DNA of 33,029 nucleotides from an uncultured Bacteroidota bacterium. Lineage in GTDB: Bacteria > Bacteroidota > Bacteroidia > Bacteroidales > UBA12077. The translations under genes and the position numbers were made by a program. The notes under the pieces are model-generated. The model worked only from the letters and a program-made list of their open reading frames with translations, ran no database searches and was not told where the DNA came from. Shown here piece by piece: positions 1-32,723 of the stretch (positions within the stretch are counted from its first letter, which is position 1; each line of letters starts with the position of its first letter). The stretch spans positions 1 to 33,029 of the forward strand of contig CAJXLK010000042.1 in NCBI GenBank assembly GCA_913055635.1. The letters run 5' to 3'.

Positions 1-982
1 TGGCAGCGCGATTTCTGTCTGCGCTATTGTTTTTATTCATCATTTCAAGGGTTGGAGTGTCAATGGCTTCAAAGCCGATCACCACCGCGCGTAATCCCAC
101 CTCTTTCCAGCGTTGTAATAACTCCGGATGACGCACTACCATATCGGAACGCACATCAGCGAGGTACTGGCGCTTAATTCCGGCAGCTGCGAGGCTTTCG
201 GCAAGCTTTAATGCCTGTTCAGGATGGCCGAAGCTGTTGGCATCCACGAGGCGGATCACCGGGGCATCCTCCAATGCTTCAATATCCGCAATAACGCCGG
301 CTATTGAACGCGTGAGGTAGCGTTTCCCCGTGATTGGAGGGATGCAGCAGAAATTGCACGCATACGGGCACCCAAGCGCACTGGATACCAATCCCATCTG
401 CAGCCCGAGAGAGGAGAGGTAGTATTCATTCCTATACCCTTCAACCAGATCATAGCGTGGTTTGCTGTAACACCCGGCGTCAGCATCCGTATAGCACCGT
501 TCGCGCCAGTGGAGCTTTTGCCCTGGTGTGGCTTTGGCTACTCCGTCTACTTTTGGGGCTCTACCGCGTTCGAGGTCTTCAACTATTTCGCGCAATGCAA
601 CAGTGCCGAGGCCGATGACGATCCAGTCAATCTCGGGGTGGTTGAAATCTTCAGGGCGGCATGTAGCGTGGCAGCCGCCTACTACAATGGAGGCGCTGCA
701 GGTGGTCCGAACCCCGCGTGCGAGGTCGAGAACCGTATTGACCTCACAGGTCATGGAGGTGAAGCCCACCACGTCGGGAGCAAAGGTTTTCAGTGCTTCA
801 TCCAGGGTGTCCGGCGCCGCTTTAAGGTCGACAATCCGTACATCATGTCCGGCTAGATTGCCCGCCAGGGTCTGGAGCGCAAGGGGCTCGCCGCGGAAGA
901 TCTGCTTCAGCGAATCAATGCCGTAGCGTTCTTCGGGAATGCTTCTGCCGCAATTGGGTGGATTGACTAAAAGAATGCGCAT
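1..982 (-). CDS. B12-binding radical SAM protein (partial, runs off left edge)
   Basis: An open frame of 327 codons starts at the ATG at 982 and is still open at base 1, so the C-terminus is missing. The N-terminal part (MRILLVNPPN, then VVGFTSMT, VVGGCHAT and IVIGLGT) has the pattern of a cobalamin-binding Rossmann-like domain. The radical SAM cluster motif CPYACNFC (CX3CX2C) follows at about residues 205-212, and a VRLVDANSF-like strand follows that. Proteins of this layout (B12-binding plus radical SAM) use S-adenosylmethionine and often methylcobalamin for methylations or rearrangements; the substrate cannot be told from this part. No clear Shine-Dalgarno sequence precedes the ATG. It may not belong to the same genome as the DNA right of about 1567, because the junction there looks artificial. 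Family assignment is firm; specific function is unknown. Confidence 0.85.
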   Translation of the reverse strand, partial: MRILLVNPPNCGRSIPEERYGIDSLKQIFRGEPLALQTLAGNLAGHDVRIVDLKAAPDTLDEALKTFAPDVVGFTSMTCEVNTVLDLARGVRTTCSASIVVGGCHATCRPEDFNHPEIDWIVIGLGTVALREIVEDLERGRAPKVDGVAKATPGQKLHWRERCYTDADAGCYSKPRYDLVEGYRNEYYLSSLGLQMGLVSSALGCPYACNFCCIPPITGKRYLTRSIAGVIADIEALEDAPVIRLVDANSFGHPEQALKLAESLAAAGIKRQYLADVRSDMVVRHPELLQRWKEVGLRAVVIGFEAIDTPTLEMMNKNNSADRNRAA

Positions 983-1557
983 GCGATTGGTCGCAGCTCC
1001 ATGAAGGTCAACAGGTCAGAAAACACTATACAAGCTAGCATAATATTTCCAGAGCCGGAATTTACCTGTTTTCCTTAGCCATGTCAAAAAAAGCTGAATA
1101 TAAAACTTGATTTTAATTCAGTGCCGGACTCTGAATAAGCGTCTGGTTGAAGCTCTGGCGCTCGAACTCGCGGACGCTTAACCCATCTCCAGCAGAGGGC
1201 GGTTGCTGCAGATAGAGAAGGTCACGGCGTACGGCGGGTTGTTCGGCAACTCTGGGGTGGGCAACATAGGTATTTATCGTCTAGGTGCTTGAAAAAACAA
1301 AGCGGATTGGCTAAGAAGATACCATAAACGTAAAAGAGTCAGCCGATCTTGCGCGTCGGGTCAGTAAGCGGTGTTGGGTCTAGCCCCCCAACGCCCCCTG
1401 GTATTGCCGTGGGTCCGCAAACGAGGGAGCGGTATTCCTCTGCTTTTCGCCGGTGAGAGCGCGAAAAGGTATAAAAAGCCGGAGCGTGGTATCCGAGATG
1501 GCCCGGATTTTCTGTTGACAAACAGAGCAGGAAGATGTGTGAACGTATTTAGGCCCA
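983..1557. other. Gene-poor stretch with possible gene remnants up to a suspicious junction
   Basis: No convincing complete gene. On the minus strand, about 1110-1275 can be read as an open stretch of roughly 50 codons that contains LREFERQSFNQTLIQSPALN-like text and ends in TAA, but it has no start codon. A second open minus-strand stretch (about 1339-1564) is rich in Arg, Ser and Pro and matches nothing I recognise. At about 1567 the sequence switches abruptly to a good APS kinase reading frame on the plus strand without its N-terminal half. Confidence 0.4.
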
Positions 1558-1854
1558 TTGACAAGGTTTTCTCCCTATAAAAAGGACCGCGAGCGGGCCC
1601 GCAATCTCAACGAAAAAGGTGATTTCATCGAGGTTTTCGTCACCGCTCCCCTGTCCATCTGTGAGAAACGTGATCCTAAAGGGTTATACAAAAAGGCCCG
1701 CCAGGGGGTTATTCCTGAATTTACTGGCATATCTGCCCCTTACGAGGAGCCCGATAACCCCGAGATCACCATCGAAACCGATAAGCTGGATGTACAGCAG
1801 GCCGTGGACAAAATCATTGATTACTTCAAACAGAAAGGAATCCTGTTTAAATAA
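1558..1854 (+). pseudogene. cysC: APS kinase, C-terminal fragment only
   Basis: APS kinase phosphorylates adenosine 5'-phosphosulfate to PAPS, the sulfate donor for sulfotransferases and assimilation. The visible 98 codons match the C-terminal half of the family: [50 protein letters not shown], then the final helix [12 protein letters not shown] full enzyme is about 195-205 aa; the Walker A region and the APS-binding N-terminal half are absent. The frame can only open from a TTG at 1558, and recognisable homology begins at about 1567 (FSPYKK), so the start is an accident of the junction rather than a real initiation site. Either the gene was cut by a rearrangement or two contigs were wrongly joined. 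A strong terminator follows at 1926. Confidence 0.85.
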
Positions 1855-1925
1855 AGAAGGTTATAGAACCCAGTTGCAGTTAAAAACAGCGGGATTTCTT
1901 GCAGAAACTTTTTATTCCTTCATAC

Positions 1926-1957
1926 AGGCAGGGATGCGATGGCATTCCTGCCTTTTT
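1926..1957 (+). terminator. Rho-independent terminator after cysC
   Basis: A 12-bp stem (1926-1937 with 1942-1953, one G-T pair) and a 4-nt loop are followed by a run of five T. It sits between the convergent cysC fragment and the NUDIX gene and fits termination of plus-strand transcription. Confidence 0.75.
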
Positions 1958-1964
1958 GATGACT

Positions 1965-2399
1965 TTATAAGTTCAGCTTTTCGATGGCCAGATCCAGGAT
2001 TTGTTGGTGGTCGAAGGCCAGGGCAGGGGGGTGGTGGATATCGAACCAGGCTGCCTTCCTGGCATCTGATCCGGCTTTCGCCTGTGGGGGGATGGTATTC
2101 AAAAAGGCATAATAGACCACTGATATGTTACGGCCCCGGGGATCGCGGCCCGGCTGGCCAAAGGTATAAAATTGATGCACCGGGATCTGGCTGAGTCCGG
2201 TTTCTTCTTCCAGCTCCCTTTGGGCAGCGGTTGGCAGGGGTTCTTCGATTTCGACAAAGCCCCCCGGAAGAGCCCATGAACCCTCAAAAGGTGGTTTGTC
2301 CCGCTGGATCAGCAGCAGATGCCAGCTATCCTGTTGGGGCAGAAAAATCATACAATCCACCGTAACGGCAGGCCTTGGATAGGTATAGGTGTAACTCAT
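1965..2399 (-). CDS. NUDIX hydrolase
   Basis: A 144-aa protein with a complete Nudix box at residues 47-69: G47, E53, then RELEEETGL at 61-69 (GX5EX7REUXEEXGU). NUDIX enzymes hydrolyse nucleoside diphosphates linked to another group; the compact single domain and the SWALPGGFVE stretch resemble ADP-ribose or sugar-nucleotide type hydrolases common in Bacteroidota, but the substrate cannot be read from the sequence. The start ATG overlaps the stop of the upstream 33-aa gene (ATGA), so translation is probably coupled. It is the last gene of a three-gene minus-strand unit. No signal peptide is seen, so the protein is expected in the cytoplasm. Confidence 0.9.
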   Translation of the reverse strand: MSYTYTYPRPAVTVDCMIFLPQQDSWHLLLIQRDKPPFEGSWALPGGFVEIEEPLPTAAQRELEEETGLSQIPVHQFYTFGQPGRDPRGRNISVVYYAFLNTIPPQAKAGSDARKAAWFDIHHPPALAFDHQQILDLAIEKLNL

Positions 2400-2497
2400 G
2401 ATGAATCATTTTGGCTTTTGTCGGATTTTCTGGTGATCACCAGATAGATAGCAATGATGATAACAACCAGAAAAATCAGGATGTATAGGCGTGTCAT
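2396..2497 (-). CDS. Small single-pass membrane peptide (33 aa)
   Basis: The ATG at 2497 overlaps the TGA of the NlpC/P60 gene, and its own TGA overlaps the ATG of the NUDIX gene; both overlaps are ATGA. The peptide is one hydrophobic helix (LYILIFLVVIIIAIYLVI, about residues 4-21) followed by a short polar tail (TRKSDKSQNDSS). This length and shape fit an inner-membrane microprotein. Two exact overlaps in the same direction make chance unlikely and suggest co-translation with both neighbours. I recognise no family. It could anchor or regulate a neighbour, but nothing in the sequence shows that. Confidence 0.7.
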   Translation of the reverse strand: MTRLYILIFLVVIIIAIYLVITRKSDKSQNDSS

Positions 2498-3297
2498 AGC
2501 GAATGGTTTTTTTGAGGTTCATCCATGATATTAATGATCACCCTCAAAGTGTGGGTGTATTGTTTGAGCTCGCGGTTGTAAATGCCTTGATGGTCAATGG
2601 CATCGATTCGGACTTTCCCGGAGGCATGAATGATGTGGTTGGGGTCGAGCATCATTCCGGTGTGGATGATTTCCCCCTCCTCATTGTCAAAGAAGGCCAG
2701 ATCGCCGGGGCGGGCATCTTTGATAAATCCCACGGTGGTGCCCCGATGCACTTGTTGATGGCTGTCGCGCGGCAAAACAATTCCTCCCATTCGGGCCAGA
2801 ATCTGGGTGAAACCGCTGCAATCCATCCCAAAAACCGTCTTGCCTCCCCATAAATAAGGGGCATTCAAATAGTTCCGGGCGGCCTGGGCCAGCTCTCCCC
2901 GCGACATCCCCCTGGCCACACCGCTTTTATCCTGTACCGTACAATGCCGGTTGGATAAAGTGAATGAGCCGGTAGAGGGATCAAAATCGGGTAAAAGCGA
3001 GCCCCCTGCAATCCACATCCCCTCATTTTCAATGTTCAACCACATGAAAGGTTCCCCTGCAACCCAAGGTGCCTTTTGCTGGTGTGCGGCGATCCATTCA
3101 CCACTCATCCTTAAAAAATACAAACTCTTCATCCATCCTTCATATCCATCGGGTAACCTGCGGATATGGTGCCATTCCCCCTGCGATTCCAGTATCCTGA
3201 AATGCTCCCCAAACAAAAGCTGATCGGTCAGCTCCCCCTGCCTGTCGGGTGTATCCCTTAAGGGAATCATACTGTTCAGGCAAATGCCGTTGTCCAT
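2494..3297 (-). CDS. SH3 and NlpC/P60 family cysteine peptidase (YkfC-like)
   Basis: A 267-aa protein. An N-terminal bacterial SH3-like region (about residues 10-65, with the GYEGWM motif) and a second SH3-like segment precede an NlpC/P60 domain from about residue 132. The catalytic Cys is in MDCSGF (C160), the likely catalytic His in IIHTG (H212), and a third polar residue in HIIHASG (H224). Enzymes of this layout cut the gamma-D-Glu-diamino acid bond in murein peptides; YkfC-type members act in the cytoplasm on recycled peptides that carry a free N-terminal L-Ala. No signal peptide is visible, which agrees with a recycling role. The gene is first in a coupled unit with the 33-aa peptide and the NUDIX gene. 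Confidence 0.88.
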   Translation of the reverse strand: MDNGICLNSMIPLRDTPDRQGELTDQLLFGEHFRILESQGEWHHIRRLPDGYEGWMKSLYFLRMSGEWIAAHQQKAPWVAGEPFMWLNIENEGMWIAGGSLLPDFDPSTGSFTLSNRHCTVQDKSGVARGMSRGELAQAARNYLNAPYLWGGKTVFGMDCSGFTQILARMGGIVLPRDSHQQVHRGTTVGFIKDARPGDLAFFDNEEGEIIHTGMMLDPNHIIHASGKVRIDAIDHQGIYNRELKQYTHTLRVIINIMDEPQKNHSL

Positions 3298-3313
3298 CCC
3301 AATGGTTTTTAAT

Positions 3314-3321
3314 CAAAAATA
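3314..3321 (-). promoter_or_regulatory. Candidate -7 element for the NlpC/P60 operon
   Basis: Read on the minus strand, TATTTTTG fits the Bacteroidota -7 consensus TAnnTTTG and lies about 17 nt upstream of the ATG at 3297. No clear TTTG is seen at the usual -33 spacing, so support is partial. Confidence 0.4.
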
Positions 3322-3690
3322 ACAAATTCTTACGAGTTATACCCGTATAAAGGCTTATTTAACTGTGGGTAAATAGGTATACCGTTGAATATCAGATTCA
3401 TGTCATTGAATATTCCCCTATGGCCGTGGCAAACGCATTGATGATCTTACTGGATGGTTTCCCATGCAAGTGGGCAACTTCATTTATGATCTTGTGGGGG
3501 CCTGTTGAACCGCCCATTTATTATTTAGGACCCTGTTTGATATTTGTTCATAAAATCTGCACAAGCTGGCAGGGTCGTTTAAGATGATTGAAAGGCCATG
3601 TTTTACCTGAGATGAGCCGGTGGTGGTTAAACATTGATTGCGGTTGAATGGTTTAAGGGGTAAATTGACCCGGGCTTTGGCCAAAATTTG

Positions 3691-3698
3691 TATTTTTG
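3691..3698 (+). promoter_or_regulatory. Candidate -7 promoter element for the PgpH-like gene
   Basis: TATTTTTG matches the Bacteroidota -7 consensus TAnnTTTG. A TTG at 3665-3667 lies about 23 nt upstream, slightly far for the usual -33 TTTG. The ATG at 3739 would give a 5' leader of about 35 nt. Confidence 0.5.
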
Positions 3699-3738
3699 TC
3701 GGGTACAAAATTTATTCTACTAAAAGGCTGCAAATTAT

Positions 3739-5937
3739 ATGAAGGATATTTTTTCATTCATCAAGAGCAAATATAAAAGCATCTTCAATGGGCTGTTATT
3801 TTTGGTGGCTCTTGTGATCCTTGTCAATTTGCTTCCACGGGAAGGCAAGTTCAAATACGAATTCCAGAAAGGCAAACCCTGGATGCACGAAACGTTGATA
3901 GCCCCCTATGATTTCCCCGTATATAAAAGTCAGCAACAGATCAAACAGGAACGCGACAGTGTTCTGGAGCACTTTAAACCTTATTTTCGCTATGATACCC
4001 TGGTACTGAAACGACAGGTTAAAAATTTCACCGAGGAGTACAACCAGCAGTTGAGGCAGGCCTTCAATGAAAAATTTTCGGACCGGCAATTGAAGGAAGT
4101 CTTTGTTGACAGCCGCTTTGAAGAGCGGACCCGCCAGTTTTATCAACCAGAAGACGGCATACGAGATGCGGACGTGACTGGAGTTCAGACGTGTGCTCTT
4201 CCGATCTACCAACGCACCATTCAATACCTGAAGGATATTTACCGCCAGGGTATTGCTGAAGCTGCTGCAATCAACGGGAGTCTGGATCGGGATTCAAAGG
4301 TTGTGATTCTCCGCGATAACCTGGCCGAAGAGCATGAGTTCGGAAAGATCTATGATCAGAAAGAGGCCTATAAATATTTGATGAATCATGTGGAAAAGTA
4401 TCTGGACTCGCTGGATGTGAAAGACGACCGGCAGCGAAACTTTTTTACTTCGCTTAATTTTTATGATTACATCAAGCCCAACCTCTTTTATGATCAGGAG
4501 ACTTCCCAAAAAGTCAAACAAAACATGCTGGACAACATTTCCATCACCCGGGGGATGGTTCAGGCGGGTGAGCGGATCGTATCGAAGGGGGAAGTGGTTG
4601 ATGCCAGGACCTTCCGCATATTGGAGTCCCTAAGGAGGGAATATGAGAAAAGCCTGGGCAGTGATTTTCAGTACAACCTGATTTTTCTGGGCCAGGCTAT
4701 TTTTGTTTTCGGGGCGATCTTTGTGCTCTACCTCTTCCTGTTTCATTTTCGCTATGAGATATTGCAGAACAGTCTGAAAACCGTTTTTATTCTTTTCCTG
4801 GTGGTTTTGATGGTGGGCATCGCCAGCATCACCGTCCGGGTGCGCCCAGATACCCTTTATATCATTCCTTTTGCCATATTGCCCATCATCATCCGTTCCT
4901 TCTATGATGCCAGGCTGGCCCTTTTTATCCATATTGTCACCATTATGATTGTGGGTTTTTTTGTGCCCAATGGCTTCGAGTTTGTCTTCCTTAATTTTAT
5001 TGCCGGTATTGTGGCCATCTTCAGTTTGACCAGTCTGAACCGCCGGGGCAAACTATTCCTTTCCTCGGCGATGGTGGTTTTGAGTTATATCTTCATTTAT
5101 TTCGGGCTGGCCATCACCCAGGAAGGCAGTATAGAAGGCATTAACTGGATGAATATTGCCTATTTCGGCATCAACGGTGCGTTGGTGTTGGCTTCTTATC
5201 CGCTGATCTATATCTTTGAAAAAAGCTTTGGCTTCTTATCGGATGTCACCCTCATGGAGCTTTCCGACACCAACCAGCCTTTGTTGCGTCGCCTCTCGGA
5301 GCAGGCCCCGGGCACCTTCCAGCATTCTCTGCAGGTAGCCAGCCTGGCGGAGACCGCTGCCTACCAGATTGGGGGCAATACCCTGCTGGTGCGCACAGGT
5401 GCCCTTTACCACGATATTGGTAAAATGGAACAACCCATTTATTTTATCGAAAACCAGGATACCGATTTTAACCCCCACAGCCAGCTGGAGTTTCTTGAAA
5501 GTGCGCGGCTGATCATTGGCCATGTGAAAAAGGGTGTGGAGTATGCCTCTAAATATAAGCTGCCCGGGCCCATTGTTGATTTTATCCGTACCCATCACGG
5601 AACTACCCGGGTGCATTACTTCTACAAGAAATATCTGCAGGCCTTCAATGAGGATGAGGTGGACGAGAGTCAGTTCTCCTATCCCGGCCCCAAGCCTTTC
5701 TCCAAAGAAATGGCGGTGCTGATGATGGCGGATGCCGTGGAGGCGGCTTCGAGAAGCTATTCATCGCTTGATGAGAAGACCATCAACAACCTGGTCGACA
5801 GCATCATCGATTCCCAACTCAATGGCGGGCAGTTTGAAAATGTGGACATTACTTTCCGCGATATCACCATCATCCGGGGTATCTTCAAGAAAAAGCTGCA
5901 AAATTTCTACCATGCCCGGATTAAATATCCGGCATAA
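3739..5937 (+). CDS. pgpH: 7TM-HD family c-di-AMP phosphodiesterase (PgpH-like), with an in-frame adapter artefact
   Basis: The layout matches PgpH: one N-terminal membrane helix (about residues 18-34), a long extracytoplasmic domain (about 35-310), seven predicted helices (about 320-505) and a cytoplasmic HD hydrolase domain. HD residues visible are H529 (FQHSLQ), H558-D559 (YHDIGK) and the THHGTTRVHYF segment. Characterised PgpH proteins hydrolyse cyclic di-AMP to pApA. Residues 138-156 (EDGIRDADVTGVQTCALPI) are a translation of an Illumina index primer, not part of the protein; the 60-nt match happens to keep the frame. The real protein should be about 710 aa, or slightly different if genomic bases were replaced. 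The gene stands alone, divergent from the NlpC/P60 operon. Confidence 0.9.
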   Translation: MKDIFSFIKSKYKSIFNGLLFLVALVILVNLLPREGKFKYEFQKGKPWMHETLIAPYDFPVYKSQQQIKQERDSVLEHFKPYFRYDTLVLKRQVKNFTEEYNQQLRQAFNEKFSDRQLKEVFVDSRFEERTRQFYQPEDGIRDADVTGVQTCALPIYQRTIQYLKDIYRQGIAEAAAINGSLDRDSKVVILRDNLAEEHEFGKIYDQKEAYKYLMNHVEKYLDSLDVKDDRQRNFFTSLNFYDYIKPNLFYDQETSQKVKQNMLDNISITRGMVQAGERIVSKGEVVDARTFRILESLRREYEKSLGSDFQYNLIFLGQAIFVFGAIFVLYLFLFHFRYEILQNSLKTVFILFLVVLMVGIASITVRVRPDTLYIIPFAILPIIIRSFYDARLALFIHIVTIMIVGFFVPNGFEFVFLNFIAGIVAIFSLTSLNRRGKLFLSSAMVVLSYIFIYFGLAITQEGSIEGINWMNIAYFGINGALVLASYPLIYIFEKSFGFLSDVTLMELSDTNQPLLRRLSEQAPGTFQHSLQVASLAETAAYQIGGNTLLVRTGALYHDIGKMEQPIYFIENQDTDFNPHSQLEFLESARLIIGHVKKGVEYASKYKLPGPIVDFIRTHHGTTRVHYFYKKYLQAFNEDEVDESQFSYPGPKPFSKEMAVLMMADAVEAASRSYSSLDEKTINNLVDSIIDSQLNGGQFENVDITFRDITIIRGIFKKKLQNFYHARIKYPA
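4148..4207 (+). other. Illumina TruSeq index primer sequence (assembly contamination)
   Basis: The segment starts with CAGAAGACGGCATACGAGAT, continues with six bases GCGGAC and then GTGACTGGAGTTCAGACGTG through to GCTCTTCCGATCT. This is the P7/index PCR primer of Illumina TruSeq libraries. The six bases are the reverse complement of GTCCGC, which I recall as TruSeq index 18. With four further upstream bases (CAAC against CAAG) the match reaches 64 nt with one difference. It is not genomic DNA and should be masked. Confidence 0.98.
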
Positions 5938-6009
5938 GTCCCGGCTATTTCTGAGTTTCCATCTGAGCCAATCCCCCTTTGCCTGGTAAGAAATTTTTTG
6001 AGGAGATAT
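5938..6009. other. Short spacer after the PgpH-like gene
   Basis: Together with 6190-6257 this is the remainder of a 320-nt interval without a large gene. I see no terminator hairpin with a T-run here; the only coding candidate in the interval is the 59-codon frame at 6010-6189. Confidence 0.3.
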
Positions 6010-6189
6010 TTAGCCAAGTTTCAAATTCTCGGGCAATAGATCATCCAACGGATTGGCCTGATAATCGGGAAGTGGCTGCCATTTAAGTGCAGTTTTTTTC
6101 CATTTAAACGGGCTATGATGGGTTTTATCATGATCCTTAAGCCGGGCAGGCATCCTGGCAAATGAGCCAAAGCTCGGCTTCCCGTTCAT
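6010..6189 (-). CDS. Candidate small basic protein (59 aa), unknown
   Basis: A complete minus-strand frame runs from the ATG at 6189 to TAA at 6010-6012. It begins MNGKPSFGSFARMPARLKD and ends NPLDDLLPENLKLG. It starts 68 nt after the lolA stop in the same direction. Codon choice (CCG, GGC, CTT, AAA) resembles its neighbours, and the composition is that of a real soluble protein: a basic N-terminal half, a Trp- and Lys-containing middle and an acidic-hydrophobic tail. No membrane segment, Cys pair or known motif is visible and I recognise no family. No clear Shine-Dalgarno sequence precedes it, which is common in Bacteroidota. It may be a real small gene in the lolA transcript or a chance frame. 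Confidence 0.45.
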   Translation of the reverse strand: MNGKPSFGSFARMPARLKDHDKTHHSPFKWKKTALKWQPLPDYQANPLDDLLPENLKLG

Positions 6190-6257
6190 TTAGGTGGCAT
6201 TCTTTACAGAAACAGATTTTTATAGAGATGTTTGTTTAAGAAGAAATGCCCTTCCGG

Positions 6258-6914
6258 TTAAAACCGCATGTCGATGACTTCTACTTTGGGATGGGCTTGT
6301 TTATCGAATACAAAGGATGAATCGGAGGCCGGTTTATCGGTTACCAGGTTGTCTATTTCGATGGTATATCGGGTGCCGTCCTTGGCAAAGACCCTGGCCG
6401 AATGGATCTGGACCGGCGATGGGGTGAGAAACAGCCTGATCCGGCTATAATCTTTGTCGAGGTCTTTGGGATAGAGATCGATTTTGTGCATCTGTATGCC
6501 CTCGATTCTCTCTTCACCCAGGTATTTATGCTTGAGCTCCATTTGATGAATCTCGAAGATTTGGTGGGGATGGTTGAGTATATCGCCTTCTTTTTGTTCA
6601 ACCGGTTCTGAAACATTGACCTCTTCTGCATCATGAAGGTGATTCCATAGGGTTTTGCCATCGTAGTAAACGGTGGAATGGTGAAGTTCAAGGCGATATT
6701 TTTGGCCTTTCATAAGAATTTGGCCTTCCCAGGAACCTTCTTCCTGTGATTGAAGGCTTTTATAGTGGAAGGTAAAATCGGCCCGGATGGTTTGATGGGC
6801 CTGGTTGTTTTCGGCCAGTTTTTTAAGGAGCTGTTGGGCCCGGTTATTTTGCTGGCCCGACACCTGAAGGGCCGGGAGCGATAGGAGGGTCAACAGCAGG
6901 ATTTTCAGTTTCAT
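6258..6914 (-). CDS. lolA: LolA-like outer-membrane lipoprotein carrier protein
   Basis: A 218-aa protein with a cleavable signal peptide (MKLKILLLTLLSLPALQVSG, about residues 1-20) followed by a LolA-type beta-rich fold: IRADFTFHYKSLQSQEEGSW, GQILMKGQKYRLEL, VYYDGKTLWNHL. LolA is the periplasmic chaperone that takes lipoproteins released by LolCDE and carries them to the outer membrane. Length and segment order fit Bacteroidota LolA proteins, which are divergent from the E. coli protein. It lies 193 nt downstream of ftsK in the same direction, an arrangement I recall from other Bacteroidota. A role in another envelope carrier process cannot be excluded. Confidence 0.85.
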   Translation of the reverse strand: MKLKILLLTLLSLPALQVSGQQNNRAQQLLKKLAENNQAHQTIRADFTFHYKSLQSQEEGSWEGQILMKGQKYRLELHHSTVYYDGKTLWNHLHDAEEVNVSEPVEQKEGDILNHPHQIFEIHQMELKHKYLGEERIEGIQMHKIDLYPKDLDKDYSRIRLFLTPSPVQIHSARVFAKDGTRYTIEIDNLVTDKPASDSSFVFDKQAHPKVEVIDMRF

Positions 6915-7107
6915 ACGGATATACTTTAATTAAAAGTTTATAAATCAATATAATCTGAATCTCAAAACAGACATTATCTGGTCAATCATTATGGAACCCG
7001 CATGTTTATTCATGTCCTTGTTGTGTAAGTTCTTGGATGGGGGGTTCATAGGGATTGTTTCGTTTTTGCCTTTTACTGCCATATTTCGCCAGGGATAAAA
7101 GGTTGGA

Positions 7108-9708
7108 TTATGTGGTGTTTTCATTGGAAGAAGCGTTCAAATATTGTTCCAAAGCGTATTCATCGGGGAAGAGAACCTGGCGGGCCTTGCTGCCTTCGTG
7201 GGAGCCCACGATGTTGGCCGCTTCAAGCTGGTCCATGATGCGGCCTGCCCGGTTGTATCCGATGGAAAACTTACGTTGTATCAGGGAAGTAGAGCCCTGT
7301 TGGTGTCGTACCACCATGCGGGCGGCCTCTTCAAAGAGCTCATCCCATTTTTCCACATTTTTGGCCTCGCCGTTGGCCCCTTCATCTTCCTGATATTCGG
7401 GCAGTTCAAATGGTTCCCCGAAGCCCTGTTGGTTGCTGATGAAATCGGTGATTTTTTCCAGATCCTCGGTTTCCAGGAATGCGCATTGCAGGCGGGTCAG
7501 ATCGCTGCCGGTGGATATGAGCATATCGCCCCGTCCGATCAGCTGATTGGCCCCCTGGCTGTCGAGGATGGTGCGCGAGTCGATCATCGAGGTGACTCGG
7601 AAAGCAATGCGGGCGGGGAAATTGGCTTTAATCACCCCGGTGATGATATTGGTGGTGGGCCTTTGGGTGGCAATGACCAGGTGAATGCCAATGGCCCGGG
7701 CCAATTGAGCCAATCGGGCAAGCGGGCTCTCGACTTCCTTACCGGCGGTCATGATCAAATCGGCAAATTCGTCGATCACCACAACAATATAGGGCAGGTA
7801 ACGGTGTCCTTTATCGGGATTCAGCCTTTTGCGGATAAATTTTTTGTTGTATTCCTTGATGTTGCGGACATGAGCAGCTTTCAGCAAATTGTAGCGCTCA
7901 TCCATCTCCAGGCATAGAGAATTCAGGGTTTTAATGATGTCCTGGTTCTCAGTAACAATGGGTTCTTCTATGTCAGGTATTTTGGCCAGATAGTGATTTT
8001 GGATCTTTGAATAAAGGGTCAGCTCCACTTTTTTGGGATCGACCATGACAAATTTGAGCTGGGCCGGATGCTTTTTATAGAGCAGGGAAGTGATGATGGC
8101 ATTCAGGCCCACTGATTTACCCTGGCCGGTGGCTCCTGCAACCAGCAAATGGGGCATTTTTGAAAGGTCCAGCGCATAGGTTTCGTTCGAGATGGTCCGG
8201 CCCAGGCCGATGGGCAGTTCATACTGGGCCTCGCGGAAAATTTTAGAGCTCAGCACCGAGCGCATGCTGACGATTTCTTTTTGCTCGTTGGGCACTTCAA
8301 TTCCAATGGTTCCCCTGCCCGGGATAGGGGCAATGATGCGAATGCCTAAAGCGGCCAGGCTCAGGGCAATGTCGTCTTCCAGGTTTTTGATTTTTGAGAT
8401 GCGAATGCCCGGGGCCGGCACGATTTCGTAAAGGGTTACTGTGGGGCCAACCGTGGCTTTGATCTTATCAATCTGAATTTTATAATTGGCCAGGGTTTCT
8501 ACAATTTTGTTCTTGTTGCGGTAAATCTCCTCTTTGTTGACTTCCGTCTGGCCTTCTTCATCGCCGTAGTCTTCAAGCAATTCGATGGGGGGCATCTGGA
8601 AATGGCTCAGCTCCAGGGTTGGGTCATAGTCCGGGATGTTTTCCGTGGGTATACTTCCTTCAGCACGTTCTTCTTCACTTTTCTCAATGGTGATCTGAAC
8701 GTCCTCTTGCGAATCCTCTTCGGCCGGGCCCTGGTCAGGGTGATTTTGTGGCTCACCGTTGCTTTGATTTGGGGATGCTGCGGGTTCCTCTCTGGTTGAC
8801 TCCTGATTGGAGGTGGCCTCGGGGGTTTTGTCCTGTGATGTTTTGTCTTTAGCCGTTTCGCTGGTACCAGGGCTTTCGTCACTTGTTTGAGCTTGCCTGT
8901 TGGAAGCCCCGGTCTTAGGGGTGATCTGCTCCCATTCAGTGACTGCTTCATCGGGGGGCTCCCCCTCCTGTTGGCCTGCGGTAGATTGTCCGGAGGATTC
9001 AATAGGGGTGTTGTCGACTTCCCGGGTAGCCTCTTTTTTCCCGGCCTTTTCCCCTGTTGAACCAGAAGGACCATCGTTTGCCGGCGATGGCCTGAGGGGA
9101 GCTTTGCTGAGGCCCAACCACCGAATTATCCTGCGATAGCCCCGTATGGCCGATTGCTCCAGCTCACCCACTGGTTTGTTGAGCAGGGCAAGCATGTAAG
9201 TGGCCAGGGCAATCACCAGCAGAAAAGCCGTGCCCGTTTTTCCGATCAGGGCATTTAACCAGCGGGCCATGAAAAGTCCATGCCCCCCACCAGGACCGTT
9301 AACCAGGTAACCCTCCAGGTCCTGGAAAAGGTAGCCCAAAAACAACGACAACAAGACCATCCCGGTCAGGCTGTAGAAAAGGGTCTTTTGTACCGGCAGT
9401 ATTTTGTAATTGAACAGCTTAAAGGCCAACACCACCAGAAAAAACGGCACCAAAAAGGAGGCAATGCCAAACCATTTGGCAATAAACATGTTGGCCAACC
9501 GTGCCCCCAGTTTGCCGCCCCAGTTCTCCACCGTTATGCTGGCCCCGGAAACAACCTGCCCCCATTCAAAACTCTGGTCAATCTGCCAGGTGAAAAAAAA
9601 GGAGGTAAAGGCCAAAATGATATAGATGGCCAAAAACAACAGAAAAAGACCCGTAAGAAACTTATACCGGTCATCCCGTGCTTGTCGCTTTTTGTTTTTT
9701 TTACCCAT
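7108..9708 (-). CDS. ftsK: FtsK/SpoIIIE DNA translocase
   Basis: FtsK pumps DNA at the division septum and helps resolve chromosome dimers. From the ATG at 9708 the protein is 866 aa. It has four N-terminal membrane helices (about residues 15-195), a long acidic, Pro/Ser/Glu-rich linker (about 205-350), and a motor domain with Walker A GATGQGKS (about residue 525) and Walker B VVVIDEFADLI (about 645). The C-terminal gamma winged helix (STSLIQRKFSIGYNRAGRIM) would read polar DNA motifs. The frame could open 36 nt earlier at a TTG, but the ATG giving MGKKNKKRQ is the better start because it begins with the basic segment ahead of the first helix. It is preceded by a lipoprotein gene (91-nt gap) and followed by lolA. 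Confidence 0.95.
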   Translation of the reverse strand: MGKKNKKRQARDDRYKFLTGLFLLFLAIYIILAFTSFFFTWQIDQSFEWGQVVSGASITVENWGGKLGARLANMFIAKWFGIASFLVPFFLVVLAFKLFNYKILPVQKTLFYSLTGMVLLSLFLGYLFQDLEGYLVNGPGGGHGLFMARWLNALIGKTGTAFLLVIALATYMLALLNKPVGELEQSAIRGYRRIIRWLGLSKAPLRPSPANDGPSGSTGEKAGKKEATREVDNTPIESSGQSTAGQQEGEPPDEAVTEWEQITPKTGASNRQAQTSDESPGTSETAKDKTSQDKTPEATSNQESTREEPAASPNQSNGEPQNHPDQGPAEEDSQEDVQITIEKSEEERAEGSIPTENIPDYDPTLELSHFQMPPIELLEDYGDEEGQTEVNKEEIYRNKNKIVETLANYKIQIDKIKATVGPTVTLYEIVPAPGIRISKIKNLEDDIALSLAALGIRIIAPIPGRGTIGIEVPNEQKEIVSMRSVLSSKIFREAQYELPIGLGRTISNETYALDLSKMPHLLVAGATGQGKSVGLNAIITSLLYKKHPAQLKFVMVDPKKVELTLYSKIQNHYLAKIPDIEEPIVTENQDIIKTLNSLCLEMDERYNLLKAAHVRNIKEYNKKFIRKRLNPDKGHRYLPYIVVVIDEFADLIMTAGKEVESPLARLAQLARAIGIHLVIATQRPTTNIITGVIKANFPARIAFRVTSMIDSRTILDSQGANQLIGRGDMLISTGSDLTRLQCAFLETEDLEKITDFISNQQGFGEPFELPEYQEDEGANGEAKNVEKWDELFEEAARMVVRHQQGSTSLIQRKFSIGYNRAGRIMDQLEAANIVGSHEGSKARQVLFPDEYALEQYLNASSNENTT

Positions 9709-9799
9709 GGGCAGTGAGATGCTTTTCAAACGAAAAAAACGCAATTACAAAGAAAATAAAATTAATGGGAAATCACGACCATTGCACGGGGTAAAAACG

Positions 9800-10504
9800 T
9801 TATTTGAGCAGTTCAATTATCTTTTTCATTGATTGTTTGTTGACCCTCTTGTAGCCAGAAGGAACAGAAAACTTTTTGGGGGAAACCTCTTCGCCGGATA
9901 CTTCGGTAGCTTCCAGTTTAACTGGCAAGCCATAGAGTTGCACTTTAAATTTAAGCAATACCCCGTCAATGGACTGGTAGGGAGTCAGATCGGTGAAGCC
10001 CTCGATCTCAATATCCTGGGTGGCATATACGGCAAACGGCCCATCTTCCTGGCCGGTGTTCTTGCGGTGGATGATGTATTTGCGGCATTTACAACCCGCA
10101 ATTTCTTTCATCGTCGAGGTGCGTTCAATCTCCATCTCCGGTCGGCTCTGAAAAAAAATGGAAGGTTTATCGCTTTGCTCGATGTATTTGTACTGGTTGT
10201 TGAATATATCCACCAATGTGGTATAGGTTCCTTGCTCGTGGTTTTTTATATGGGTGAATGCCACTACACCGGCCAGATCGCTAATGCGGTTGCGGGTGTT
10301 GTTGTCCTTGAACCACATGGTCATCTTTTTGGGCAACAACTCGTATTTAAACCCGCGCATGCTGTCACCCTTGTAGGTCATCCGGTATTCAATGAAGCCT
10401 TCCTGAATCTGGCTTGCCGGTTTGTCTTTTTTCTGGCAGCAGGCCAAAAGCATTATAAGCAGGAGCAGCAGGGCATAATAAAGGGCCGTATGTTTGATTT
10501 GCAT
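9800..10504 (-). CDS. Putative lipoprotein of unknown function
   Basis: A 234-aa protein with a lipoprotein signal sequence: a hydrophobic stretch followed by the lipobox-like LLAC at about residues 19-22, then a charged Lys-rich start of the mature part. The rest is beta-rich, with repeated patterns such as GFIEYRMTYKGD, KMTMWFKDNNTRNRI and TSTMKEIAGCKCRKYII. This resembles the DUF4412-like group of Bacteroidota envelope proteins, but I cannot assign it firmly. The CKC pair at about residue 140 could form a disulfide after export. It lies directly upstream of ftsK on the same strand. Confidence 0.75.
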   Translation of the reverse strand: MQIKHTALYYALLLLLIMLLACCQKKDKPASQIQEGFIEYRMTYKGDSMRGFKYELLPKKMTMWFKDNNTRNRISDLAGVVAFTHIKNHEQGTYTTLVDIFNNQYKYIEQSDKPSIFFQSRPEMEIERTSTMKEIAGCKCRKYIIHRKNTGQEDGPFAVYATQDIEIEGFTDLTPYQSIDGVLLKFKVQLYGLPVKLEATEVSGEEVSPKKFSVPSGYKRVNKQSMKKIIELLK

Positions 10505-10716
10505 ATATTCTTGGGGGATTGGATGTTGTAAAACAATCTACAAAAATAGCAAAATCTGTCAAAAAGCCGTGTTTTAACCGGGACAATTTCCACGAGGATA
10601 GGAGGGGGATGGCGGTTCAGAAAGGGGTTAAATGAAAACAATGAGGGAGGTGGGTGTATATGGATAATTTTTATTAGATTTGTATCTCCTTGATTAATAA
10701 ATGTAAAAAATTGGTT

Positions 10717-11667
10717 ATGAGAAAATTAGCAGTTATAGCATTAGGTGGCAACGCATTGCTCCGGGGCAATCAGGCGGGGACGATAGAGGAGCAGGAACAA
10801 AATGTCACCGAGACGCTGGAAAATTTACTTTTCTTGCTGGAAGAGGATTATCACATTGTCATCAGCCATGGCAATGGTCCTCAGGTAGGTAATCTCCTGA
10901 TGAAAAACGATGCAGGTGAGCAGATGTACGACCTGCCTCAGATGCCGCTTGATGTATGCGTTGCTGATACCCAGGGTGAAATAGGTTATATGATTGAAAG
11001 GGCTATGCTCAATTTGTTGCGCAAGCATAACATCAACAAAGATGTGGTCACCCTGGTAACACAGGTAAAGGTAGACAAAGAGGACCCGGCCTTTCAGGAT
11101 CCTCAGAAGCGGGTTGGCAGGATATACAACAAGGAGCAGGCCGATAAGCTGGCCAGGGAAAAGGGCTGGGCTTTTAAGGAAGAAGTTAAAGCCGAAGGGG
11201 GCTGGAGAAGGGTTGTGCCTTCGCCCATACCCCAAAGCATCATGAATGAAAATGTGGTTGAGAACCTGGCACGACAGGGCAATATAGTGATTGCTTCCGG
11301 AGGAGGAGGTATTCCCGTTTACAGGGATGAACAACAGCGGATTCGCCCATCGGAAGCTGTCATCGATAAGGATATGGCCTCATCACTTATGGCAGCCCGT
11401 ATAAAGGCCGATGAGTTTTATATCCTGACCGATGTACCTTATGTCTACATCAACTATAAACAACCCAATGAAAAAGCACTGGATCCGTTGGATGTAAATG
11501 ATGCCAAAAAATACCTGGAGCAGGGGATGTTCTCCGAAGGCAGCATGAGTCCGAAGATCCGTGCTGCAGTCCAGTTTGTCGAGCAAGGCGGCGGAAAGAG
11601 TGTAATCACTGAAGCCACCCTGCTCAAGGATAAGGAATATGGCACCCGCATCATTGCTAATTATTAA
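10717..11667 (+). CDS. arcC: Carbamate kinase
   Basis: Carbamate kinase converts carbamoyl phosphate and ADP to carbamate and ATP, the energy-yielding last step of arginine or citrulline fermentation. From the ATG at 10717 the product is 316 aa, the usual family length. Motifs of the amino-acid kinase fold are clear: VIALGGNALL at the N-terminus, ISHGNGPQVGNL (about residues 45-56), RRVVPSPIP, and IASGGGGIPV near the middle. A longer frame from a TTG at 10690 would add nine residues before the conserved first strand and is less likely. The arcB-type gene follows after 18 nt, so the two are almost certainly co-transcribed. Confidence 0.93.
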   Translation: MRKLAVIALGGNALLRGNQAGTIEEQEQNVTETLENLLFLLEEDYHIVISHGNGPQVGNLLMKNDAGEQMYDLPQMPLDVCVADTQGEIGYMIERAMLNLLRKHNINKDVVTLVTQVKVDKEDPAFQDPQKRVGRIYNKEQADKLAREKGWAFKEEVKAEGGWRRVVPSPIPQSIMNENVVENLARQGNIVIASGGGGIPVYRDEQQRIRPSEAVIDKDMASSLMAARIKADEFYILTDVPYVYINYKQPNEKALDPLDVNDAKKYLEQGMFSEGSMSPKIRAAVQFVEQGGGKSVITEATLLKDKEYGTRIIANY

Positions 11668-11685
11668 CTTAAAAAATAGATTGTT

Positions 11686-12684
11686 ATGGCGTTTAATATT
11701 AAGAACCGTAATTTCCTGAAGCTGTTGGATTATACCCCACAGGAAATCGATTTTCTGCTGAGTTTGTCCACCGGCCTAAAGGCAGCCAAATATGCCGGTA
11801 CCGAACAACCCCGTCTCAAGGGCAAGAATGTGGCCCTGATTTTTGAAAAATCTTCCACCCGCACACGTTGTGCTTTTGAGGTAGCCGCCAAGGACCAGGG
11901 CGCCGATGTGACTTACCTGGGCCCGACCGGCTCGCAAATGGGCCAGAAAGAGTCGATGAAAGATACAGCCCGCGTGTTGGGCCGAATGTACGACGGCATT
12001 CAGTACCGCGGTTTCGGCCAGGAAGTGGTTGAGGAACTGGGCAAATATGCCGGGGTTCCCGTCTGGAACGGGCTGACCAACGAATATCACCCTACCCAGA
12101 TATTGGCTGACTTCCTTACCATGAAGGAACATACCGACAAGCCGCTGAAAAATGTCAAATTTGCCTATCTGGGCGATGCCCGCAACAATATGGGCAATTC
12201 CCTCTTGATTGGCGCCGCCAAAATGGGCATGGATTTCCGCTCGGTAGCCCCTGAAGAAACCCAGCCCTCCGAAGAACTGGTTGAGCAGGCCAGAGAAATA
12301 GCCCGGGAAACCGGTGCCAAAATAACCGTTACCGACCAGGTGGAGGAAGGTGTGCGCGACTGCGATTTCCTTTATACCGATGTGTGGGTCTCCATGGGGG
12401 AACCTGAAGAAGTATGGAAACAGCGCATTGAGCTTTTAAAACCCTATCAGGTCAATAAAGCCTTGTTGGAGAAAACCGGCAATCCCGATGTGAAGTTTCT
12501 CCACTGCCTGCCCGCTTTCCACAACCGCGAAACCAAAATCGGTGAAGATATTTATCAGAAGTTTGGCCTGGAATCGATGGAGGTCACCGAAGAGGTTTTT
12601 GAGTCGGAAGCTTCCATCGTATTTGATCAGGCGGAAAACCGCATGCACACCATTAAAGCTGTTATGGCCGCCACAATGGGCTAA
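11686..12684 (+). CDS. arcB: Ornithine carbamoyltransferase (probably catabolic)
   Basis: A 332-aa transcarbamoylase. The carbamoyl-phosphate motif EKSSTRTR, the [20 protein letters not shown] segment, NEYHPTQ and the ornithine-binding HCLPAFHN are all intact. The length and the close pairing with carbamate kinase suggest the catabolic enzyme: citrulline plus phosphate gives ornithine and carbamoyl phosphate, which ArcC then uses to make ATP. An anabolic role (argF) cannot be excluded from sequence alone. No arginine deiminase gene is in the window, so citrulline must come from a gene elsewhere or from outside the cell. A strong terminator follows at 12718. Confidence 0.92.
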
Positions 12685-12717
12685 ACCATACCCCCTTTTC
12701 TATTCCACCCTCCTTCT

Positions 12718-12749
12718 ATCAACCCCGCTTAGCGGGGTTGATTTTTTTA
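12718..12749 (+). terminator. Rho-independent terminator of arcC-arcB
   Basis: A perfect 25-nt inverted repeat (12718-12742, arms of 12 around one T, core CCCCGCTTAGCGGGG) is followed by a run of seven T. It is the first of three copies of the same palindrome. Confidence 0.85.
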
Positions 12750-12800
12750 ACCCCCGCTTAGCGGGGCCATTGTTTGAGGCGAACCCCGCTTAGCGGGGTT
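12721..12800. repeat. Three copies of the palindrome CCCCGCTTAGCGGGG
   Basis: Copies lie at 12724-12738, 12752-12766 and 12784-12798, separated by 13 and 17 nt. The first and third also share AA/TT-type flanks (AACCCCGCTTAGCGGGGTT). Only the first has a T-run of terminator type in the plus direction. A degenerate half copy (AAGCGGGGG) follows near 12808. They sit between the convergent arcB and DUF456 genes. Confidence 0.85.
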
Positions 12801-12824
12801 GATTGAAAGCGGGGGAATGGTGTA

Positions 12825-13346
12825 CTAGAAGACCAGGCTGTAATCGATGCGGGTAAAGAAGTAAAATGCCATAATCAGGGCGGCGATGAGTTTGAGACCG
12901 GTTCCCATTAAAAAGCCGATAAAGGAGCCGAATCCGGCCCGCAGGGAAGCGTTAAAATCGGAACCTTTGAGGGTTTCACCGACCACTGCACCTACAAAGG
13001 GCAGGATGATGATGCCAATGGGGGGGAAAAGGAAGATGCCCAGGACCACCCCAATGGTTGCCCCCCAGCTGCCATATTTGGTGCCCCCAAACCTTCGGGT
13101 TCCCCAAATGGGGACAAAATAATCCAGCAGGGTCACGACAATGGCGACAATGGCCAGAATAATCAGGGTAGTGGCGGAGAAGGAGGCGAAACCGGTCAGC
13201 TGCAACATCAGCAACCCCCCAAAACTAAGGGGCGGACCGGGGATGACGGGAAGAATGCATCCGGCCACACCTGCTACCATCAATATAACACCTAAAAATA
13301 CCAGTAAATAGTCGCTGAATCCAATGTTCGCTGCCAGTTCGATCAT
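12825..13346 (-). CDS. DUF456 family membrane protein
   Basis: A 173-aa hydrophobic protein from the ATG at 13346. It has several predicted membrane helices and the glycine- and proline-rich motifs of DUF456: GCILPVIPGPPLSFGGLLML near the N-terminus, DYFVPIWGTRRFGGTKYGSW in the middle, and FLFPPIGIIILPFVGAVVGE towards the end. The function of DUF456 proteins is not established. The frame extends further upstream without a good start, but MIELAANIGFSDYLL leads directly into the first helix and is preferred. The gene appears monocistronic and converges with arcB. Confidence 0.88.
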   Translation of the reverse strand: MIELAANIGFSDYLLVFLGVILMVAGVAGCILPVIPGPPLSFGGLLMLQLTGFASFSATTLIILAIVAIVVTLLDYFVPIWGTRRFGGTKYGSWGATIGVVLGIFLFPPIGIIILPFVGAVVGETLKGSDFNASLRAGFGSFIGFLMGTGLKLIAALIMAFYFFTRIDYSLVF

Positions 13347-13481
13347 GGTCGTTTTTAATTGTAAATATACATATTTTTCACCTTTCCTGATGAACACATC
13401 CCAGGTTGATTTTCTACAGAGCAATTTGGGCTAAGCTTTTACAGCGGCAATCGACCTTAACATCTTGATGTATACATAGAA

Positions 13482-13515
13482 GAAAGGAACCCGCTATGGC
13501 ATCCGGGTTCCTTTC
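13482..13515 (-). terminator. Hairpin downstream of the baeRF gene
   Basis: A perfect 12-bp stem (13482-13493 with 13504-13515) with a 10-nt loop sits 54 nt past the minus-strand stop at 13569. The T-run on the minus strand is weak (TTTCTTCT). A second perfect 7-bp hairpin (13532-13551) lies between it and the gene. Confidence 0.55.
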
Positions 13516-13568
13516 ACTGTGGTTCATCTTTGCCTGCCTTCACAGGCAGGCGCTTCATCCTGAAAGGG

Positions 13569-14717
13569 TCAAAACCGGTAAAGGGCATTGAGTGGTTTCT
13601 GGCCATCGGGCATTTCTTCGGGGGCCATCAGGTAGACCCGGCCATTGTTCAGAAAGGCCTTGACCGCAGCAAAATTGAGCAGATCTTCATCCCCGTTCTG
13701 CCTCTGGTGGTGTTGGGAGACTTCAAAGGTGTCATGGTGTAGGCTGCCCCAAACACATTCTTTTTTGTTTACAAACAGGGTTTCTACCCGGTTGTACAGC
13801 ACGTTGGGGAGGATGTCTTCAATCATAAAGGATTTGTTATTGGAGTCGAGATACTCCTTTACCTTTTGTGCCCTTTCCCGGTCCAGCTGATCCTGAATGA
13901 CCTGCCAGGCTTTTTTCAGCAAGCTTTTCTCGTTTTCATCCCGCGGACTTTCCGAAATGTTTCGATCGACCAGGTATTTGTAACCGGTTACTTCCCTGAA
14001 CAACGAGAAGATATAATCGACCGAGGCCACCACCAGGGGTTCGGTTTTATTGCTGAGGATGTTTTGCAGGCCATCTTCCACATATCGGAGAAACCGCTGT
14101 ACCTCTTGCTTTTTCTCTTCTTCCCCTTTGGCATGTCCATGGTAGAAAGTTTGACCACCTCCAACCACTGCACTGCGGTGTTGGTAAACTTTATCCTTGT
14201 ATTCATCGAACCCGGTGACTTCTTCAATCTGTTCGGGGATGAAGGCCTCGAGCTCAACGGGTTCGATGCTGAACCGGTTGGCTTTGTATAACTTCACCCC
14301 GTGCAGATTGAGCGAGAGGATATAGAAGTTTTTGTTTTCCTTTACAGGCCTGAGCAAAGGCAACAAGTAAAAATCTTCGCCCATATACAGGACGTTGTCA
14401 AAATCCAGAGGCAAGGTATAATATTTAAAGGTGCGTTCATTGAGAAAAATGGCAAGCCCATCCCACAGACTTCTCAGAAAACCGGCATCCTCAACAATGT
14501 CGTACAATGGTTTGAGGTATTGATCAATGTCTTTTTGCTGGAAACCTTGCTGTTCAAGGTTCTGACGGGCAGTCTTGATTTTATTTTTCAGGTTGATGCG
14601 GTTCCGGTTTTCTTTGGATTCGGGATCTTCACGGGTTGTAGGCAAATAAATGGAAATGCTGTTGGGGCTTCTTTCCTGACTTAATTTATCAATGGTTTGT
14701 TTATCAATTTGTTCCAT
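13569..14717 (-). CDS. baeRF family 7-type protein (bacterial relative of eukaryotic release factor eRF1)
   Basis: A 382-aa soluble protein. The start (MEQIDKQTIDKLSQ, then SISIYLPTTREDPESKENRNR), the central LWDGLAIFLNERTFKYYTLP and FYILSLNLHGVKLYKANRF, and the C-terminal FAAVKAFLNNGRVYLMAPEE fit the bacterial eRF1-like proteins described from comparative genomics (baeRF group; I assign family 7 from memory of Bacteroidota members). The family has a release-factor/Pelota-type domain core and has been proposed to act on stalled ribosomes; this is a prediction, not a demonstrated role. A GGxT/GGQ-like stretch (VVGGGQTFYHGHAKG) lies in the central domain at about residues 190-205. AGGAG lies four nt before the ATG. 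The gene is alone between DUF456 and the feo operon. Confidence 0.75.
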   Translation of the reverse strand: MEQIDKQTIDKLSQERSPNSISIYLPTTREDPESKENRNRINLKNKIKTARQNLEQQGFQQKDIDQYLKPLYDIVEDAGFLRSLWDGLAIFLNERTFKYYTLPLDFDNVLYMGEDFYLLPLLRPVKENKNFYILSLNLHGVKLYKANRFSIEPVELEAFIPEQIEEVTGFDEYKDKVYQHRSAVVGGGQTFYHGHAKGEEEKKQEVQRFLRYVEDGLQNILSNKTEPLVVASVDYIFSLFREVTGYKYLVDRNISESPRDENEKSLLKKAWQVIQDQLDRERAQKVKEYLDSNNKSFMIEDILPNVLYNRVETLFVNKKECVWGSLHHDTFEVSQHHQRQNGDEDLLNFAAVKAFLNNGRVYLMAPEEMPDGQKPLNALYRF

Positions 14718-15110
14718 AAGCTCCTGATTTTGGATTTAAACATCGATTTAACATCTCAGTGGCACAGCTTTTTCCTTCAAAAAGGGTGTTTTACTTTATT
14801 CAAACCGCTTTGTTATCGGCATTAAATTCAACGTAAGGTGATTTTTTGTTATTTTTCACGTTTGTAGATAAATGAGGCTATCAGCTGCGTAATACGTACA
14901 AATCCGGCTTTAAGCAGGATAAGGCAGGGGTATGGGATTGGTGGGATAAGAATCTTATAGACTGACACTTAACAGGAGTACATGCATAAGCCATGCGACT
15001 AAGTGGAGAGCTCCAACGATTAATTAGGGTTCAATACTGAGCATGATTGATCCCCTTTAAATGGGCCTTTAAATGAGTACAAAACTCGAGCCAATGGTTA
15101 TTGGGATGGC
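14718..15110. other. Intergenic stretch between the feo operon and the baeRF gene
   Basis: The 393 nt contain the upstream region of the baeRF gene at the left end and the downstream region of the feo unit at the right end. I see no complete gene, no strong hairpin with a T-run and no repeat. Confidence 0.4.
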
Positions 15111-15278
15111 TTATTTTTGGTAGGGAAGGGGGCGGGGGTTGGGATTTTTTTTCATCGGGCATGAAGAGCAGGGGCACATCCTTTTTTTGTTGCTTTGCCT
15201 GAAGAAGCGGAAGATATGGTAGCCTGCATAAGTAACTGCAGCGGCCACGATCAGATATGTAACAAGCCATTGTATCAT
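15111..15278 (-). CDS. FeoB-associated Cys-rich membrane protein (55 aa)
   Basis: The ATG at 15278 lies one base after the feoB stop, so translation is likely coupled. The peptide has one N-terminal membrane helix (MIQWLVTYLIVAAAVTYAGY), a basic stretch (FFRQSNKKR) and a cysteine cluster MCPCSSCPMKK (Cys 35, 37 and 40), then a Pro/Asn-rich tail. This shape and position match the FeoB-associated Cys-rich membrane protein family, thought to assist FeoB in ferrous iron transport, perhaps in place of FeoC. The cysteines could bind iron or an iron-sulfur cluster, but that is inference. Confidence 0.85.
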   Translation of the reverse strand: MIQWLVTYLIVAAAVTYAGYHIFRFFRQSNKKRMCPCSSCPMKKNPNPRPLPYQK

Positions 15279-15279
15279 A

Positions 15280-29429: not shown

Positions 29430-29433
29430 ACCA
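29409..29433 (-). repeat. Right terminal inverted repeat of the ISL3 element
   Basis: This is the exact reverse complement of 28126-28150. The transposase stop codon (29427-29429) lies within it. Confidence 0.92.
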
Positions 29434-29572
29434 TTTTTAGTGATGTTTGAGCCAATGTAAATCATCTGGAAAAAGATTCGGAATTCCTTAGTATAAAAAC
29501 TTCTGTTATGCATTTGTAAATAGCAAATAAATAGCCATCAATTTTTCGCAATGTTATTTCCCCAGTTTATTT

Positions 29573-29818
29573 ATGCTAAAAGACAGAAACTATGATTATT
29601 ACAGGGTAGAAGATTTTGTTTTGGATCCATGTTTCAGGGATTGGGCATTGAATAGGGGCACGGCACAGAGTATTTACTGGCATTTATGGATTTTCCATCA
29701 TCCAGAAAAATATCAGGACATTCAGGAGGCCAGGATGATTCTATACATACTGCACCCCGCCTTTATTCCGAAAAAGGAAATCGGGAAAGAATTAAAGTGG
29801 CAGGAGATGTGCAATTGA
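29573..29818 (+). pseudogene. FecR-like anti-sigma factor, N-terminal remnant (81 aa)
   Basis: The 81 codons match the N-terminal domain of Bacteroidota FecR-type anti-sigma factors: YYRVEDFVLDPCFRDWAL, then WHLWIFHHPEKYQDIQEARM. Full proteins are about 320-390 aa with a membrane helix and a periplasmic FecR domain; here the frame stops after the cytoplasmic helices and no membrane helix follows before the next gene. Such proteins normally follow an ECF sigma factor and control a SusC/SusD pair; neither is present. The sigma gene may have been lost near the ISL3 insertion 140 nt upstream. It is probably a decaying gene, although a free cytoplasmic anti-sigma domain is possible. Confidence 0.7.
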
Positions 29819-29926
29819 AAAGAACTGGAAAGAAACAACAATATGAATCAAATGGCAGGAAGGAAAGGGTGGCTGGTATAATAAACGATTGATTTAATCG
29901 AGTTTATACAATGAAGAAGATGTAGA

Positions 29927-30928: not shown

Positions 30929-30946
30929 AATTAGGTATTTGTATCT

Positions 30947-30968
30947 AATGATAATTATAATTATCATT
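30947..30968. repeat. Perfect 22-bp AT-rich palindrome
   Basis: AATGATAATTATAATTATCA plus TT reads the same on both strands and is followed by TTTT. It lies 19 nt after the flippase-like gene stop and can act as an AT-rich terminator. It marks the start of the AT-rich right end. Confidence 0.6.
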
Positions 30969-31065
30969 TTTGATCTTTAAAGGTTTTTTATAAATAGCTC
31001 TTAATTACTTCATCCCTGTATTTGAATTGAATGCATTTGTACTTATTATGTTTAAAAGATTTGTA

Positions 31066-31893: not shown

Positions 31894-31915
31894 TATTATT
31901 CCCTTTTAAATGTTT

Positions 31916-32455: not shown

Positions 32456-32585
32456 GATTTTTCTCTCTTCTTTTTTCCATAAAGTATTATTACGCTTTGG
32501 GTCCCATAACCGCGCTCTGAAAATAATGTTGTTTTTAGGGCATGTGTCAGTTTCTGTGGTTTTTAGGTGGCTTGTTCCAATGGAA

Positions 32586-32711: not shown

Positions 32712-32723
32712 ACTCACCACCCT

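Follow-up and report, generated by a model that had tools for sequence, protein, structure and literature searches.

An Illumina P7 index primer assembled in frame within a PgpH-like gene of an uncultured Bacteroidota bacterium

In the window (the whole stretch of DNA analysed, 33,029 nucleotides of contig CAJXLK010000042.1), a 60-nt segment inside the gene for a PgpH-like phosphodiesterase is a perfect match to the 3′ part of the Illumina P7 index primer. The segment is an artefact of sequencing and assembly of a known, ordinary kind and not a biological feature, and it was almost certainly produced by untrimmed adapter read-through that ended a contig, which was then joined to its overlapping true neighbour. 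The insert has no biological consequence, and its cost lies in reuse of the record: an alignment, structure prediction, or motif search that uses the host protein would inherit 22 spurious inserted residues in the extracellular domain of this signalling protein. The features concerned are collected in Table 1.

Table 1. Coordinates in the window of the host gene, the adapter and its parts, and the associated sequences
Feature	Position	Strand	Basis
Host gene for a PgpH-like 7TM-HD phosphodiesterase; the 732-aa ORF contains the 22 extra codons	3739..5937	+	Pfam; alignment with 29 relatives
False ORF, 142 aa, running through the adapter and containing DRKSTRLNSSHVRISYAVF	3796..4224	-	ORF list
ATCAAC, putative left-arm copy of the contig overlap; last four bases (CAAC) resemble P7 CAAG	4142..4147	+	Sequence; relatives without the 22 extra codons
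3′ 60 nt of the Illumina P7 index primer: P7 (20 nt), index GCGGAC (6 nt), and read-2 primer site (34 nt)	4148..4207	+	Exact match; artefact
3′ 20 nt of P7, CAGAAGACGGCATACGAGAT	4148..4167	+	Exact match
6-nt index GCGGAC	4168..4173	+	
34-nt read-2 primer site, ending GATCT	4174..4207	+	Exact match
ACCAAC, start of the genomic sequence past the adapter and putative right-arm copy of the overlap	4208..4213	+	Sequence; codon comparison with relatives

To locate the primer, the window was searched with the pattern CAGAAGACGGCATACGAGAT-N6-GTGACTGGAGTTCAGACGTGTGCTCTTCCGATCT, in which the 6-nt index was left free and up to three mismatches were allowed. The 60-nt segment was the sole match and was exact, and none of 100 shuffled sequences gave any match, which bears out the first-pass annotation in its reading of the 60 nt from 4148 as a P7/index primer. 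The wider range given there, 4144-4207, held only from 4148 onwards, because 4144-4147 reads CAAC where the first four bases of P7 are published as CAAG (a read end, an overlap, or an error). Across the whole assembly (4,083,064 bases in 77 contigs), the 34-nt read-2 site was matched once with up to three mismatches and the 13-nt common end GCTCTTCCGATCT was likewise matched once; the P5-side 33-mer had no match at the same tolerance.

The index had been named as TruSeq index 18. Its number agrees with the primer tables of PMC5100919 and PMC8044721, in which the full primer with the 6-nt index GCGGAC appears as 'IP 18' and 'PE2_MPX_18', respectively. Published forms bearing on the TruSeq label differ: the TruSeq Index 18 adapter in PMC8468003 has two more bases after the index, whereas 'Index Adapter 18', as given in PMC11616997, is without these two bases and agrees. 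On the opposite strand the TruSeq form with the two bases would read GTCCGCAC followed by ATCTCGTATG; it was not found, the window being without the AC. The oligo is index 18 in its PCR-primer form, which more than one kit could have supplied.

The host protein contains the Pfam domains 7TMR-HDED, 7TM-7TMR_HD, and HD, in that order (E values of 1.6e-20, 1.6e-30, and 1.8e-14), together with the HDIG domain TIGR00277 from NCBIfam; the three Pfam domains make up the architecture of PgpH. PgpH hydrolyses cyclic di-AMP, an activity that is putative for the host protein. The adapter interrupts the extracellular 7TMR-HDED domain (Pfam match 51-299), and the reading frame stays open through it, adding EDGIRDADVTGVQTCALPI as residues 138-156 of the ORF. 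Two of three forward and two of three reverse frames of the 60-mer are free of stops, and over all 4,096 indices four frames are open in 2,384 cases, three in 1,558, and two in 154. That the reverse strand also yields false frames, as first proposed, can be seen from the 142-aa ORF in Table 1, for which PHROGs and Pfam gave only weak matches (E of at least 0.08, those in Pfam below the cut-off).

A search for the host protein in 39 genomes (its own included) gave a match in 35 and none in 4. Of the 34 matching relatives, the 29 with a locus for their match (L003-L031) entered the alignment, each represented by its longest stop-free frame that contained the HD motif; the 5 other relatives and secondary matches were left aside. 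None of the 29 had residues in columns 138-156, the 19 false columns, which confirms both the false peptide claimed for this gene and the insertion expected at those residues. The true surplus is larger when measured against the same-genus copies: the 7TM-HD proteins of L003-L005 are homologous over the whole protein but are each 710 aa long, without the 22 residues, as against 732 aa in the window, and the net surplus is therefore 22 codons, or 66 nt. The adapter accounts for 60 of these nucleotides and a duplication (ATCAAC/ACCAAC) for about 6 more, the two copies being identical at five of six positions with a T/C difference. The gene had been said to stay open because 60 is divisible by three; it is indeed open, but what preserves the frame is the net insertion of 66 nt, not the 60 alone.

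At the insertion site, the same-genus DNA reads TTT TAT AAx in two of the three relatives and TTT TTC AAC in the third. L004 has TTT TAT AAC CGG ACC ATC at the position where the window has TTT TAT CAA C ahead of the 60-mer and AC CAA CGC ACC behind it. The six-base duplicate mimics a target-site duplication and is most simply explained by the end-to-end placing of two overlapping contig arms. Alternatively, the left edge could be read with CAAC as the CAAG of P7 carrying one error or as part of a consensus mosaic.

To place the artefact among public assemblies, pattern scans were run on GTDB and IMG/VR contigs, each returning at least 120 stretches; the index adapter was found at no fewer than 247 places in at least 240 loci, with at least 45 indices. 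Among the matches listed, the P7 side was no more than 300 nt from the end of the locus in 240 of 247 (124 of 127 and 116 of 120 in the two scans), and in these 240 the locus appears to end where the contig does. The P7 5′ end was kept exactly in 212 of the matches listed, preceded by four or more T in 200 of them; a T tract there is as expected when a read has run past the end of the adapter. Such near-end positions are as expected of untrimmed read-through, and the orientation of the adapter in the window fits the same process. One index made up 77 of the 247 matches listed, and GCGGAC was found in none of them, leaving no further contig from the same library for comparison. Seven of the 247 listed lay more than 300 nt from the P7-side locus end, and two of these (L115 and L231) were inverted and close to the other end, which speaks against simple read-through in those cases; L115 also holds a second adapter sequence. 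Another of the seven, the index adapter at L070:760-814 (NZ_LT546207.1), abuts a run of N, an internal case that fits scaffolding having buried an adapter-ended contig. This copy lies some 1.94 Mb into a type-strain genome scaffold of 5.5 Mb.

The adapter was present in 3 of 395 genomes sampled across the phylum (its own included), in 17 of 50,697 phage records, and in 2 of 5,426 E. coli genomes; the plasmid collection had no match to the 60-mer. Public read-through cases share with the window the same oligo except for the index, the same orientation to the insert, and the same false peptides. Unlike them, the window has the adapter 4.1 kb inside the contig, with the right gene on both sides, and has it cut at CAGAAG without a preceding T tract. 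The same residues in independent genomes had been named beforehand as grounds for doubting an artefact; they do occur, but the indices there are different and most copies are close to the end of a locus.

From the adapter, its orientation, the 22 extra codons, and the continuity of gene and gene order, we infer the following course of events. A library fragment ending at window 4208 would have been shorter than the read, which would have passed through the insert 60 bases into the index primer and been left untrimmed. The adapter-bearing read would then have become a contig end, presumably at low coverage, and during scaffolding or gap closing this contig would have been joined, adapter and all, to its true neighbour overlapping by about 6 bases. 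The outcome would be an adapter and a short duplicated overlap inside the gene. In favour of this account, the assembly holds one adapter copy and none from the P5 side; against it, one of the six bases is not shared between the overlap copies, and CAAC is one base away from CAAG. The same artefact could have arisen through a different join, a tolerant overlap of genomic TTTTACCAACGC (a reconstructed string) with a run-off end like TTTTTTCAAGCAG that left a mosaic consensus. Positions 4138-4150 may be read, gap-free, as such a mosaic, and T tracts before CAAG are common elsewhere, as in the public matches above. We regard this variant as unlikely, given that it needs a short mismatched overlap, of a kind unusual for de Bruijn assemblers, and that an overlap of 6 nt is the simpler account.

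Two readings depart further from read-through followed by joining to the true neighbour. The first-pass annotation had warned that the contig may be misjoined at the adapter, and since the public copies listed are nearly all close to a locus end, an internal copy does suggest that something was joined to it, conceivably from a second organism or a distant place. Both halves of the gene are nevertheless in frame and show comparable identity to the same relatives, that to L004 being 82.8% for residues 1-134, 73.2% for 157-313, and 95.0% for 314-732. L003 and L005 repeat this pattern of low identity in the middle and high identity at the end, which fits domain-specific conservation of a single gene. 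The DNA is also collinear, with gaps, with G003 (L280) over window 1570-13371 and again over 15157-15384, and with G002 (L281) over 1570-11256, so that gene order runs on across the adapter in both of these same-genus relatives; L282 adds little to this comparison, being barely more than the gene itself. Among L003-L005, the gene neighbourhood is as in the window for two of the three genomes; in the third, the gene lies on a 4-kb contig. A misjoin at the adapter is therefore not supported, and a chimeric origin is highly improbable. The remaining reading, a genuine lineage-specific insertion of 22 residues that resembles the primer by chance, can appeal to the open reading frame and the intact ORF. 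However, with four of six frames of the 60-mer open, an intact ORF is unremarkable, and chance cannot account for an exact match that spans 54 fixed bases and a catalogued index. As the residues are also absent from all 29 aligned relatives, this reading can be given virtually no weight.

The index adapter is unusually prone to leave reading frames open, so that read-through may well add the same few adapter peptides, in frame, to many real database proteins. Among the matches listed, 198 of 247 lay in a stop-free frame of 60 codons or more, 88 of them with VTGVQTCALPI, although these counts are of stop-free frames and not of annotated genes, many run to the contig end, and 77 of the 247 share one index. 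The prediction that protein databases would inherit such peptides has at least one example, the annotated hypothetical protein WVW77611.1 of Stenotrophomonas phage vB_SmaS_Bhz63 (OR797046.1), which contains VTGVQTCALPI; its locus matches only the 34-nt read-2 part, unlike the 60 nt of the window. At OR797046.1 38236-39066 (L284:862-1692), a PRK11100-superfamily domain is given in the note to this protein, which has a PhoP-like regulator as its neighbour; bacterial DNA may have been joined in here. No adapter peptide was matched in curated families of NCBIfam (three peptides) or Pfam (four peptides). In PHROGs, one of four peptides gave a weak match (phrog_34181, E of 0.093), which was not repeated with four further peptides or with the reverse ORF of the window that holds the same peptide. 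A search of one literature collection returned no mention of VTGVQTCALPI, RSEEHTSELQS, DRKSTRLNSSH, WSSDVCSSD, GVQTCALPI, or STRLNSSH, and no work on adapter contamination in assemblies as judged by titles; the effect is not claimed to be unreported. If real, it would make adapter read-through a systematic source of false shared motifs. More generally, deposited contigs should be screened for adapters inside genes and not only at their ends.

A suspicious break, separate from the adapter, is found near 1563. The bifunctional sulfate adenylyltransferase/APS kinase, 627 aa in L280, is matched in the assembly only from residue 531, at window 1561, and its first 530 residues have no other match in that assembly at an E value of 0.001. 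To the left of the break lies a B12-binding radical SAM ORF (2-982, minus strand), whose best match by E value in the genomes of relatives is about 32% identical. GC content is 0.535 in 1-1560 versus 0.475 in 1571-27400, but at third codon positions the radical SAM ORF (GC 0.59) resembles the genes around it. The DNA of 1-1560 was unmatched among plasmids. It is plausible that window 1-1570 is a chimeric contig end, and a real rearrangement is possible.

Elsewhere in the window, Rfam and tRNA scans found nothing. The PgpH-like gene is separated from the next aligned stretch by about 3.1 kb in L280 (L280:9787-12887) and by about 0.3 kb in the window. Window 13371-15157 is a stretch of about 1.8 kb that includes a baeRF-family ORF (13569-14717, minus strand), and its flanks are only about 60 bases apart in L280. 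The window ends in a low-GC tail (28215-33029, GC down to about 0.26) with ORFs for an ISL3-type transposase, a sulfotransferase-family protein, and a glycosyltransferase-like protein. Third-codon GC in the tail ORFs is 0.23-0.45, compared with 0.51-0.63 in the other genes measured, and the tail is perhaps an acquired surface-polysaccharide region.
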